DNA of 64,000 bases from Rhodococcus sp. BP22 (lineage in GTDB: Bacteria; Actinomycetota; Actinomycetes; Mycobacteriales; Mycobacteriaceae): NCBI RefSeq assembly GCF_014281965.1, contig NZ_JACFTB010000001.1, forward strand, positions 620,001-684,000, given 5' to 3'. This document shows, piece by piece, positions 5,284 to 10,769 of the stretch (position 1 is its first letter; every line of letters begins with the position of its first letter). Under the pieces are notes generated by a model that was given only the letters and a program-made list of their open reading frames with translations, ran no database searches and had not been told where the DNA came from. The position numbers were made by a program, and so were the translations under genes.

Positions 5284-5757
5284 GTGCCGGTACCCGAGTT
5301 CGTCCTCTCACTCCGGCGACGAGTGGGTACGGCCCCGCTCTGGCTTTCCGGCGTCAGTGCAGTTGTCCTGGACGAAAACGACCGGATACTCCTCACAAGG
5401 CGACGGGACAACGGTCTCTGGGCAGTGGTGTCGGGAATTCTCGAGCCCGGCGAGGAGCCCGGACCCGCGGCACTACGTGAGATCACCGAGGAGACCGGGC
5501 TCGATGCGGAACTGATTCGGTTGACGAGCGTCGATGTCACCGGGCCGATCACTTACCCGAACGGCGACCAGGCGCAGTACCTCGATCTCACGTTCCTGGC
5601 CCGCCGCACTGGAGGCGACGCGCATGTCGCCGACGACGAAAATTTGGCAGTGGAATGGTTCGCGCCCGACGCTTTACCGGAAACCCTCTCGGAGACTTCA
5701 CGTTTGCGCATCGACAAAGCACTCGACGACTCGGTCGAGGCCTGGTTTCGTACCTGA
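5284..5757 (+). CDS. Nudix hydrolase
   Basis: A 157-residue single-domain Nudix protein with a complete Nudix box at residues 51-73 (G-x5-E-x7-REITEETG). The family hydrolyses nucleoside diphosphate-linked compounds; the substrate cannot be told from sequence. The frame is open further upstream inside fecB, but GTG 5284 directly follows the fecB stop (1-nt gap), suggesting co-transcription and reinitiation. Confidence 0.82.
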   Translation: MPVPEFVLSLRRRVGTAPLWLSGVSAVVLDENDRILLTRRRDNGLWAVVSGILEPGEEPGPAALREITEETGLDAELIRLTSVDVTGPITYPNGDQAQYLDLTFLARRTGGDAHVADDENLAVEWFAPDALPETLSETSRLRIDKALDDSVEAWFRT

Positions 5758-5771
5758 TCCACCCGGTATCG

Positions 5772-5807
5772 GGTGTGTTCGGCCACCGGCCGGTCGTCGA
5801 ACACACC
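5772..5807. terminator. Bidirectional hairpin between convergent Nudix and nrdF genes
   Basis: A perfect 10-bp stem GGTGTGTTCG/CGAACACACC encloses a GC-rich inner stem. It sits in the 64-bp gap between two convergent genes and could terminate both transcripts. Confidence 0.65.
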
Positions 5808-5821
5808 ACACCGTCCCTAGG

Positions 5822-6814
<993 letters not shown>

Positions 6815-6821
6815 TCACTCG

Positions 6822-7580
6822 TCATTGGTTCTGGCCGCATCCTCGATGCAAGTACCGACAGGAATCTTTGACGACGTTCTTGTTCGTGTGATGTCGAGTA
6901 TGCGCGTTTCGTCTACTCGAAGGCTTTGGCCGCCCCTTCTGCGCCTCGGACATTTTTGATCGCGTCGCCGCACTCGCTTTTCGACCGAAGTTCGGGTTGC
7001 CCGCGCCTCGCCGCTGTTCGGATAGCCCGACGCGCAATACCTCGGACATCGACCGACCATAGCTGGGGTGGTCCTCACCGAACATTCCAAAGTTCGGATT
7101 CTCGGCCCCGGCGTTGGTTCCCTTTCGCTCCAGAGACCATCGTTCGCGCTGATCTTCGGAATGCTTGCGTCCGTAGAAGGGGTTGTCCTCCGCGAACCGA
7201 CTGGTACCCGGTCGTCCTGTAGACCGGATCCGGGCAGCCTCCCGCATCTCAGCCGTCCACAAGACTCCGGTGGGCCCGAGCCCTCCTTGCGAGAGGTTGA
7301 GCAGCGGCTGACCATCACGCCTTAGATAGGCGATCCAATCGAACTCGGCCCGACCGAGGTCCTCGAGCCCCTCGACCCAGTGCAACTCGTCCGCAATCAC
7401 CTCTACACTGGCCTGCTTGCGCAGCCAGTCATAGAACGGCGTCTTACGACCCGAGCCAGCAACCTTGAGGTGCTGGCGCAGGCGAACGGACGCAGATTTG
7501 GTGGTGAGGCCGATGTAGCGGTAATCGTAAGCCGACCGCAGTCGAACCCCGTAGATCACGCCACCTGCAGCCAGGGCCAT
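6822..7580 (-). CDS. Free-standing GIY-YIG homing-type endonuclease with NUMOD3 repeats
   Basis: A 252-residue protein. The N-terminal GIY-YIG nuclease domain (about 1-100) shows VIYG at 8-11, YIG at 22-24, and candidate catalytic Arg33, Glu79 and Asn95 (LLNLSQGG). It is followed by three to four NUMOD3-type DNA-binding motifs: NPFYGRKHSED at 133, NPNFG at 161, HPSYGRSMSE at 171, NPNFGRKASA at 195. This is the layout of phage and organelle homing endonucleases related to I-TevI and SegE/Mob. ATG 7580 has a GGAG site five bases upstream and lies 34 bp after the nrdE stop; the frame is open further into nrdE but has no need of it. It is not inside an intron or intein: both neighbours are complete. 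Expression is presumably from the nrd operon promoter. Confidence 0.87.
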   Translation of the reverse strand: MALAAGGVIYGVRLRSAYDYRYIGLTTKSASVRLRQHLKVAGSGRKTPFYDWLRKQASVEVIADELHWVEGLEDLGRAEFDWIAYLRRDGQPLLNLSQGGLGPTGVLWTAEMREAARIRSTGRPGTSRFAEDNPFYGRKHSEDQRERWSLERKGTNAGAENPNFGMFGEDHPSYGRSMSEVLRVGLSEQRRGAGNPNFGRKASAATRSKMSEAQKGRPKPSSRRNAHTRHHTNKNVVKDSCRYLHRGCGQNQ

Positions 7581-7614
7581 ATTTGCTCCAGTGTCATTAT
7601 TCAGCCGCCACACA

Positions 7615-9780
7615 TCACAACATGCAGGAAACGCAGTTCTCCACTTCGGTGCCTTCCAACGCCATCTGACGAAGTCGGATGTAGTACAGGGTCTTGATTC
7701 CCTTGCGCCATGCGTAGATCTGCGCCTTGTTGATGTCACGGGTCGAGGCCGTGTCCTTGAAGAACAGCGTCAAAGACAACCCCTGATCGACGTGTTGCGT
7801 TGCCGCAGCGTAGGTGTCGATGATTTTCTCGTACCCGATCTCGTACGCGTCCTGGTAGAACTCCAGGTTGTCGTTGTTCAGGTACGGCGCTGGGTAGTAG
7901 ACCCGACCGATCTTGCCTTCCTTGCGGATCTCGATCTTCGCCGCAACCGGGTGGATCGAAGAGGTCGAGTTGTTGATGTAGGAGATCGACCCCGTCGGCG
8001 GTACTGCCTGCAGGTTCTGGTTGTAGATGCCGTGTTCTTGCACCGACGCCTTCAGCGCGGACCAGTCGGCCTGCGTCGGAATGTGCACACCGGCGTCGGC
8101 GAACAATGCGGCGACGCGGGACGTGGCAGGCTCCCAGACCTCGTCGGTGTACTTGTCGAAGAATTCACCCGATGCGTATTTGGAGTCCGGGAAACCCTTG
8201 AAGTATTCACCGCGCGCGATCGAGAGTTGGTTCGACGCCTGGATGGCATGGAATACCACGGTGTAGAAGTAGATGTTCGTGAAGTCGATGCCCTCGGTGG
8301 ATCCGTAGTGAATCCGCTCGCGCGCCAGGTATCCGTGCAGGTTCATCTGGCCGAGGCCGATAGCGTGAGAGTCGTTGTTCCCCTGCTCGATCGACGGAAC
8401 CGAGAAGATGTGGGTCTGATCGGACACGGCCGTGAGCCCGCGGATTGCCACTGCGATGGTTTTGCCGAAATCGGGCGAATCCATCGTCTTGGCGATGTTC
8501 AGCGAGCCGAGGTTGCAGGAAATATCTTTGCCGACGTGGCTGTACGACAGATCATCGTTGAACGTCGACGGAGTCGAGACCTGGAGGATTTCCGAGCACA
8601 GGTTCGAGTGAGTGATCTTGCCCTTCACCGGGTTGGCCCGATTCACGGTGTCCTCGAACATGATGTACGGGTATCCGGATTCGAACTGCAGCTCGGCGAG
8701 TGTCTGGAAGAACTCGCGTGCCTTGATCTTCGTCTTGCGGATCCGCTTGTCGTCGACCATCTCGTAGTACGTCTCGCTGACGTTGATGTCCGCGAACGGC
8801 ACTCCGTAGATCCGCTCGACGTCGTACGGCGAGAAGAGATACATGTCTTCGTTCTTCTTCGCCAACTCGAACGTGATGTCCGGGATGACGATTCCGAGTG
8901 AGAGCGTCTTGATGCGAATCTTCTCGTCCGCGTTCTCACGCTTGGTATCGAGGAACTTGTAGACATCGGGATGGTGCGCATGCAAATACACAGCGCCTGC
9001 ACCCTGACGCGCACCGAGCTGGTTCGCGTAGGAGAAGGAGTCCTCGAGCAGCTTCATGATCGGAATGACACCCGAGGACTGATTTTCGATTCGCTTGATC
9101 GGCGCGCCGGCTTCACGAATATTACTGAGCAACAACGCAACTCCACCGCCGCGCTTGGAGAGCTGCAGTGCGGAGTTGATCGATCGACCGATCGATTCCA
9201 TGTTGTCTTCGATACGCAGCAGGAAGCACGAAACCGGCTCACCGCGCTGCTTCTTACCGGAGTTGAGAAAGGTGGGAGTCGCGGGCTGGAAACGGCCGGC
9301 GATGATTTCGTCGACCAGATCGGTGGCAAGGGCTTCGTCACCTGCACCGAGAGTCAGGGCAACCATGCAGACGCGATCTTCGAACCGCTCCAGGTAGCGC
9401 TTGCCGTCGAACGTCTTCAGCGTGTACGAGGTGTAGTACTTGAATGCACCCAGGAACGTCGGGAAGCGGAACTTCTTCGAGTAGGCGTGGTTGATGAGGA
9501 ACTTGACGAACTCACGGGAGTACTGATCGAGAACCTCTGCCTCGTAATAGTTTTCCTCGACCAAGTAGTCCAGCTTCTCATCCAGGTCGTGAAAGAACAC
9601 GGTGTTCTGGTTGACGTGCTGCAGGAAGTACTGATTGGCCGCTTCGCGGTCCTTCTCGAACTGAATCTCCCCATTGGGGCCATACAGATTCAGCATCGCG
9701 TTCAGCGCGTGATAGTCGAGATCACCATCCGCGCGGACGGTTGTCTGGGCGGGTGCTGTATCGGTGATTGTCGGTGCCAC
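7615..9780 (-). CDS. nrdE: Class Ib ribonucleotide reductase alpha subunit NrdE
   Basis: Catalytic large subunit reducing NDPs to dNDPs, with the redox-active C-terminal CVSCML cysteine pair reduced by NrdH. It has the conserved [20 protein letters not shown]-region, [20 protein letters not shown] and NLCSEI segments. The frame is open to 9957, overlapping nrdI; GTG 9780, with GGAG eight bases upstream, gives a 721-residue protein matching mycobacterial NrdE and leaves a 53-bp gap to nrdI. No intein is present. The endonuclease gene follows directly. Confidence 0.94.
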
Positions 9781-9833
9781 GGCGGGTGCTCCACTTTCTT
9801 CGTGCGTCTTGTACTGCTGAACTCGTACTGATG

Positions 9834-10313
9834 TCAGTAGGTGTGCGCCGCTCGTCGCGACTCCCGCTCCCAGAAATCGCCGAGACCGTCCCGAACACGA
9901 ACTACGTCTTCGGGGGTCCCCATCAGTTCGAAGCGATAAAGGTAAGGAACAGCGCACTTCTGTGAAATGACATCGCCCGCAAAACAGAACGAATCACCGA
10001 AGTTGGTGTTACCAGCTGCGATGACTGCCCTGATCAAGGACCGGTTGTGCTTGTCATTGAGAAACTTGATGACTTGCTTGGGAACGTAATTGGTGTCACG
10101 GCCGGCAAATGTGGTGCCACCGCCGTAGGTCGGGACGATCAGAACGTACGGCTGATCCACCCGAAATTCTTCCGGCCGGTGAATCGGTATCCGACTCGAC
10201 GGAAGATCCAACTTGGTGACGAATCTATGCGTGTTCTGCGACGCACTGGAGAAGTACACCAGTGGGTGCGTCGAGGCAGGAAGTCGAGCCGAATCGAGAC
10301 CGGTGAACGTCAC
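9834..10313 (-). CDS. nrdI: Flavodoxin-like NrdI
   Basis: The 159-residue flavodoxin-like protein that supplies oxidant for assembly of the manganese-tyrosyl cofactor in NrdF. The FMN-binding [10 protein letters not shown] loop lies at about residues 19-28, with VPTYGGG and [10 protein letters not shown] further on. It lies 23 bp after nrdH in the standard nrdH-I-E order. Confidence 0.94.
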
Positions 10314-10336
10314 ACCTGCTCATCTCCGTATTCTGT

Positions 10337-10570
10337 TCAAGCAACGCTTGCGGTGAGCGACTTGATGCGATCGGGGCGAAATCCCGACCAATGAGTGTCG
10401 CCGGCAACGACGACCGGCGCCTGCAGGTAGCCGAGCGCCATGATGTAGTCACGGGCCTCGGTGTCCTGTGAAATATCGATGATCGAGTACTCGATACCCT
10501 CCTTGTCGAGGGCGCGGTAGGTGGCATTGCACTGAACGCAAGCGGGCTTGGTGTAGACGGTGACGCTCAT
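10337..10570 (-). CDS. nrdH: Glutaredoxin-like electron donor NrdH
   Basis: A 77-residue thioredoxin-fold redoxin with the active site CVQC (residues 11-14) and the class-typical WSGFRPD motif near the C-terminus. It reduces NrdE after each turnover. First gene of the nrd operon; its upstream region holds the twin NrdR-like boxes. Confidence 0.95.
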   Translation of the reverse strand: MSVTVYTKPACVQCNATYRALDKEGIEYSIIDISQDTEARDYIMALGYLQAPVVVAGDTHWSGFRPDRIKSLTASVA

Positions 10571-10769
10571 GGGGTTCCCTTCTCACTGTCCAGCATCGCG
10601 GAGTTCACCGAGATGCTCGTAATGCACTGCGGAATAGCTTTTCGAGCTTCTTTTTCGACTGTGTGTCGATTCCGGATATGAACCCGGATTCGAGCAGTTC
10701 CGAGCGGGATTTCACGGGCTCCGTACCGGTTTTCTCGGCGGGGAGCGTTGTGGCCTCTCGGTTGTTCAG

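Follow-up and report, generated by a model that had tools for sequence, protein, structure and literature searches.

The window analysed here, a 64,000-nucleotide stretch of the Rhodococcus sp. BP22 genome, contains a cellular nrdHIEF operon that lies entirely on the minus strand. In the direction of transcription it comprises an nrdH-like glutaredoxin ORF (10337..10570; named by eye from its translation), nrdI (9834..10313), nrdE encoding the class Ib ribonucleotide reductase large subunit (7615..9741; start codon not fixed) and nrdF encoding the class Ib small subunit (5822..6796). Between the complete nrdE and nrdF reading frames lies a free-standing gene of 252 codons for a GIY-YIG/NUMOD3 homing-type endonuclease (6822..7580). 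It is separated from the nrdE stop by a 34-bp spacer (7581..7614) with a GGAG sequence at 7586-7589, and from the nrdF start by a 25-bp spacer (6797..6821), and both the cellular operon and the spacer lengths described in an earlier note on this DNA agree with our coordinates. A scan of positions 5700-10600 returned one promoter-like site (1.3 expected) and nine terminator-like sites (3.7 expected), none of either kind inside the endonuclease gene or its spacers.

The catalytic domain occupies residues 7-95 (7296..7562, minus strand) and contains Y10, Y22-x-G24, R33, E79 and N95, as judged from the family alignment, a structure model and a match to I-TevI. The Arg, Glu and Asn of GIY-YIG nucleases have catalytic roles, and all six residues are invariant in the 31 rows of the family alignment. 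The model places blocks of residues 11-100 at pLDDT 77-94, and the fold matches the I-TevI catalytic domain. The Pfam profile PF01541 scores 14 bits in the window protein against a gathering cutoff of 22.6, and matches 28 of the 31 family members at E <= 0.1 (best 4e-4). NUMOD3 DNA-binding motifs are found by Pfam in the window protein, in three stretches at about residues 115-216 (6933..7238, minus strand), and in 31/31 family members; profile positions 121-158 also match the I-TevI DNA-binding domain (1i3j) weakly, at E 0.0043. An HNH nuclease domain like that of MobE was not found, Pfam giving NUMOD3 and GIY-YIG alone at E <= 1. The assignment made in the earlier note, a GIY-YIG nuclease retaining Arg33, Glu79 and Asn95 and carrying NUMOD3 motifs, holds. 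Its description of the gene as intact-looking fits the catalytic residues and fails at the C-terminus, where the window copy is frameshifted near codon 243; a second family protein (P0002) is identical up to this point and then stays in the family frame. Because of this shift, the last Cys of a conserved H-x-R-x-H...C-x2-C motif (6825..6902, minus strand) and the tail behind it are gone from the window copy, which may therefore be inactive. The frameshift marks an early stage of decay, unless the assembly is in error here. Among endonuclease pairs picked by hand, dN/dS lies between 0.05 and 0.20 in 11/11 (dS > 1 in three of them), which points to strong purifying selection.

Relatives of the endonuclease gene are found behind nrdE in Rhodococcus, Gordonia, Nocardia, Mycolicibacterium, Speluncibacter, Sinomonas, Paenarthrobacter and Glaciibacter, as well as in the Arthrobacter phage Talia1610, and the arrangement is not unique to this genome. 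The first set of 37 loci came from 35 named contigs and, for two of them, from the genus search (L002 and L003 are apparently one genome); in every one the gene lies directly 3' of the nrdE stop with no gene intervening, and the same position is occupied in 16/16 family genomes with a match and in 3/3 further class-level loci. Only 11 of the 37 filled loci have nrdF as the next gene, namely those from Rhodococcus, Speluncibacter, Gordonia, Sinomonas, Paenarthrobacter and Glaciibacter; in Nocardia and the mycobacteria it is kilobases away or beyond the fetched stretch, and the endonuclease still stands right behind nrdE. The anchor is therefore the nrdE 3' end, and the nrdE-nrdF junction, through which the earlier note had envisaged the element spreading, is ruled out as the target. 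Estimated nrdE-endonuclease spacers are mostly 27-43 nt across 80 loci (repeats included), and in the phage the two genes overlap. Two spacers measure 117-121 nt: in Mycolicibacterium rhodesiae JS60 and M. vinylchloridicum (L017, L025) there are about 85 extra nucleotides with a long inverted repeat. As a separate observation, the nrdE of Mycobacterium sp. 1164966.3 (L027:1626-4958) carries an intein-like insert (Hint, LAGLIDADG) in addition to the endonuclease behind its stop, so that two homing elements would share a single gene. The nrdE match is shortened to the length seen in L027 also in L153, L160, L173 and L200, which may contain an intein-like insert too.

Presence of the gene is sporadic. 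Matches were obtained in 2/37 genomes of the genus, 16/401 of the family and 5/394 of the class, where the family and class searches scored at most six candidates per genome so that their counts are lower bounds; the matches include fragmentary or broken ones (G158, G553, G515), and four loci (L032, L035, L036, L037) hold broken or degenerate copies. Matches on plasmids amount to seven records, all from Bacillus, with about 34% identity across half of the protein. Empty alleles, the existence of which the earlier note had made a test of mobility, are found even in close relatives: nrdE of the window differs from that of its closest empty relative, G029, at 46/2100 nt. An ancient, vertically inherited gene that co-evolved with its nrdE tail and became patchy through frequent loss is unlikely to account for this distribution. 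Such a history would suit the endonuclease tree, which clusters by host genus (8 changes against a minimum of 7), and the correlation between endonuclease and nrdE identity (r 0.75, 561 pairs). It fits poorly with the close similarity of the window and G029 nrdE genes, and with the at least 22 changes of state that presence requires on a tree of nrdE (153 rows with >= 1300 nt of nrdE, last 60 nt omitted, phage excluded, degenerate L037 scored as present). Frequent jumps between genera are unsupported: when endonuclease identity is set against nrdE identity even the largest residuals are modest, and the endonuclease tree is ordered by genus. Since the endonuclease tree follows host genus, mobility across genera seems rare and homing would take place mostly within genera.

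The gene is accompanied by a change in the end of nrdE. Empty relatives mostly end in EGCVSCML and filled alleles mostly in ENCVSCML; in the window the Asn codon, which is Gly in plain empty alleles, lies at 7636-7638 within the recoded nrdE tail of 13 codons plus stop (7615..7656, minus strand), the putative recognition and cleavage region. Among 41 distinct filled junctions (loci with the nrdE end present, identical junctions merged) this position holds Asn in 34, Gly in five including the phage, Ser in one and Leu in one. Six of the 40 bacterial filled junctions therefore have no Asn (L010, L013, L016, L020, L033 and the degenerate L037), so that Asn alone would not be the whole of any resistance. 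In an order-wide listing by tail pattern Asn occurs in 14/76 genomes. When G136, in which the gene had not been looked for, and G158, which has a fragment, were set aside in the hand-typed table, Asn was present in 5/5 carriers versus 9/69 others among 74 genomes that fit a pattern allowing only some residues before the Cys, other tails falling outside the table (Fisher p 1.2e-4; 7e-4 minus the window genome). Phylogenetically independent comparison agrees: among 17 tree pairs, Asn and the gene agree in 11.7, are opposed in 0.1 and show no difference in 5.3 (sign-test p median 0.0005, range 6e-5 to 0.02).

The footprint is short and extends beyond the Asn codon. We compared 31 filled with 39 plain empty alleles from four genus groups, that is 70 fetched alleles grouped by hand after removal of Asn-bearing empties, Micrococcaceae, Speluncibacter, phage, L037 and those with <1300 nt of nrdE. 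The association between codon and gene is concentrated in the last 13 nrdE codons and is strongest at the 6th and 7th codons from the end (z 9.1 and 7.0); bins upstream have mean z of 0.3-1.1, and single codons far upstream (25, 400 and 427) reach z 3.7-3.9. At codon 12, Gln replaces Glu in 16/31 filled and 0/39 plain empty alleles. Sister pairs, each partner being used once and with background divergence <= 13%, were formed for 17 of the 37 filled alleles, for 101 plain empties (36 pairs) and for 12 of the 14 Asn-bearing empties. Filled and empty sisters differ at 23.2% of the last 39 nt versus 8.3% beyond 300 nt, with an excess in the tail in 17/17 pairs, while empty sisters show 8.0% in the tail versus 7.9% in the background and an excess in 18/36. 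The two distributions of tail excess differ at Mann-Whitney p 7e-8, and still at p 0.0008 without codons 6 and 7. Filled alleles compared with each other show no excess (4/12). A long shared tract in bacteria was considered and rejected: synonymous identity between filled alleles of different genera exceeds that between filled and plain empty alleles in only two stretches, codons 8-12 (0.56 vs 0.43) and, slightly, codons 24-40 (0.81 vs 0.78). Such rewriting of the tail is the footprint that would be expected if the nuclease spreads by cutting there while sparing itself. Under vertical descent with loss, by comparison, the absence of a mutual tail excess among plain empties would mean that loss has to restore the plain tail repeatedly.

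At least 14 genomes (L147-L160) have the Asn tail and no endonuclease match downstream, about 150 of the 387 family rows being listed; these 14 were chosen for fetching by that residue. A tblastn search with the window protein detected no endonuclease remnant downstream of their nrdE. All 12 that could be compared show an excess of change in the tail (22.2% versus 10.2%) and hence hold more than one changed residue, as would be expected of alleles that have lost the gene or have received a resistant tail. They are candidate post-loss or resistant empty alleles, and one of the two, gene loss or the spread of a resistant allele, is needed to explain them. The existence of recoded empty alleles is also in keeping with an ancestral gene that was frequently lost.

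The edges of the replaced DNA can be followed between the window and G029. Moving upstream from the nrdE stop, 8/42, 5/48, 5/210 and 28/1800 nt are different, and the four amino-acid differences in 700 codons include three within the last 17. On the other side of the gene, the native intergenic stretch of 151 bp and nrdF codons 1-5 (MSEKI; 6782..6796, minus strand) are replaced in the window, and homology restarts at nrdF codon 6. It likewise restarts inside nrdF in Gordonia (L161 compared with L181 to L183), and 21 nt past the empty nrdE stop in Nocardia (the decayed L036 compared with L196); in some other pairs matches are absent or found far downstream only. In these comparisons arrival of the gene is accompanied by replaced DNA on both sides: nrdE is changed in its last codons and, at loci with a neighbouring nrdF, so are the intergenic DNA and the nrdF start. 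Independently of the endonuclease, the N-terminus of NrdF differs considerably between empty relatives in Rhodococcus (L039-L067), with several unrelated-looking starts.

Block edges in homologous flanks are what any recombination gives, and the gene and tail might have travelled passively by ordinary homologous exchange with nuclease activity being irrelevant. We regard this as improbable: the left edge of the association lies about 13 codons from the stop in a sample pooled across four genus groups whereas random exchange would scatter the edges, and neither the conserved catalytic residues nor the low dN/dS would be anticipated. The replaced DNA might also bear on the NrdE:NrdF stoichiometry, which the earlier note thought the gene may alter. 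G029 has a strong hairpin behind nrdE (-34.5 kcal/mol, z -4.2) that the window allele does not have, and with the native hairpin lost transcription of nrdE may now continue into nrdF. This loss and the purifying selection on the endonuclease are features that a domesticated regulator of the nrd operon, kept for its benefit to the host through stoichiometry or expression, would also display. Domestication is nevertheless highly improbable given that 385/401 family genomes have no match (<= six candidates scored per genome), that broken or degenerate copies exist and that nrdF is not adjacent to the gene in Nocardia and mycobacteria.

The best phage match, gene 111 of Talia1610 (33% identity), resides between nrdE and nrdF, and its sisters Racecar and Mimi have both nrd genes and lack the endonuclease. 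From the nrdE end, Talia1610 and Racecar differ at 9/42, 13/48 and 9/210 nt and then, beyond 300 nt, at 9/1800 nt. Here no amino acid is changed in the last 24 codons, and positions 25, 30 and 31 counted from the end account for three changes; as the rewriting next to the gene is synonymous, the likely object of rewriting in the phage is the DNA and not NrdE function. Atuin, a more distant empty phage, has Glu where the other phages have Gly. That phages can differ in gene and tail when nrdE beyond 300 nt is 99.5% identical is again difficult to reconcile with vertical descent and loss. Remoter homologues in other actinophages (30-38% identity) sit elsewhere, for example beside thymidylate kinase or beside capsid and tail genes.

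A first scan of viral contigs gave one locus, without nrdE. A search of IMG/VR with the family alignment gave nine contigs, of which seven (L234-L240) have nrdE directly upstream. L238 and L240 look like phages, having tRNA arrays as in Talia1610; L238 and L239 returned identical matches; and L234 and L237, with NrdE 78-81% identical to that of the window, may be bacterial. Around 11 viral loci found with the Talia1610 protein, a close nrdE was detected in 0/11 and a distant one in 2/11. These two (L248, L250) encode a large reductase subunit of 25-27% identity with an endonuclease-family match downstream, and the 3' end of nrd genes may be a recurrent target. In the endonuclease tree the main bacterial clade excludes the phage and viral-contig sequences, except that L234 groups with the bacteria. 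Because this tree is rooted on distant phage rows and has long branches, and in view of the placement of L234, a phage source is only a suggestion.

The observations to be explained are thus a nuclease family with its site, sporadic presence and short recurrent tail footprint, and a phage homologue at the same site. They very probably reflect intronless homing by a free-standing endonuclease gene that has specialised on the nrdE 3' end (class Ib). Where filled and empty alleles meet in one cell, infected or not, the empty nrdE would be cut within about the last 13 codons, and recombinational repair would copy the filled allele, importing the endonuclease gene together with the recoded nrdE tail. 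Conversion would run rightward to the next homology, that is nrdF where adjacent and otherwise the downstream flank. The CVSC end of class I reductases is redox-active, and the recoded tail keeps encoding it, so that the essential enzyme would survive. The recoded tail would resist further cutting; in intronless homing the recipient is assumed to be resistant since donor sequence replaces the cleavage sequence (PMC12724721, in the part that treats this). Copies would decay later, the window C-terminus perhaps being an early case, and could be lost to leave recoded empty alleles. We infer the cutting, the exact cut position, self-resistance and the direction of transfer from comparison of alleles.

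Chromosomal copies might additionally serve as target-recoded interference, in which the host nrdE is immune by virtue of its rewritten tail and an uninterrupted nrdE on phage or other incoming DNA is cut. If true, coding changes in an essential gene would take the part that methylation plays in restriction-modification. Interference by a homing endonuclease has precedent between phages (PMC11620839). We think such a role doubtful. A related nrdE (E <= 1e-100) is present in 449 phage records, and Rhodococcus, Mycobacterium, Nocardia and Gordonia are not in the named top groups, which cover all but five smaller ones, so the host groups of phage nrdE speak weakly against defence.

Intronless homing has been described in phages such as T4. 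Homing at the nrdE 3' end would bring its logic to the chromosomes of several bacterial genera, and to an actinophage, at a single homologous position, and points to a selfish element by which the C-terminus of an essential enzyme is repeatedly rewritten. With many filled and empty sister pairs at hand, the homing cycle, which runs from plain empty through filled and decayed to recoded empty, can be measured in bacteria; since the recognition site is predicted by the 13-codon footprint, the idea is directly testable in vitro.

Free-standing GIY-YIG homing endonucleases and phage nrd operons as homes for homing endonucleases are both known, from what passages of three papers describe (PMC2988022, PMC3653736, PMC10448857), and a search of open-access PMC titles and abstract starts returned no description of a chromosomal actinobacterial endonuclease family at the nrdE tail. 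I-TevI has the same GIY-YIG catalytic fold and a DNA-binding part that matches weakly in sequence; it is intron-encoded in td, whereas the window ORF lies between complete nrdE and nrdF genes. T4 mobE, Aeh1 mobE and Hef are free-standing homing endonucleases in a ribonucleotide reductase operon (PMC2988022), but MobE is an HNH enzyme among phage class Ia genes, listed in that paper with nrdB as its target in T4, while here the enzyme is GIY-YIG and the footprint is in nrdE. Talia1610 gene 111 is a homologue that is flanked by nrdE and nrdF too and shows a tail footprint when its phage is compared with empty sister phages; it differs in belonging to a phage genome, in overlapping the nrdE end and in the purely synonymous recoding of the last 24 codons. 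The T4 Seg endonucleases SegF and SegG resemble the present family in being free-standing GIY-YIG enzymes whose gene lies near the target and whose flank is co-converted (as a part of PMC2988022 sets out). The Seg systems belong to phages, whereas here bacterial chromosomes and a phage are involved with the nrdE tail as the putative target, and in most of the bacterial cases the rewriting changes a residue of an essential enzyme.
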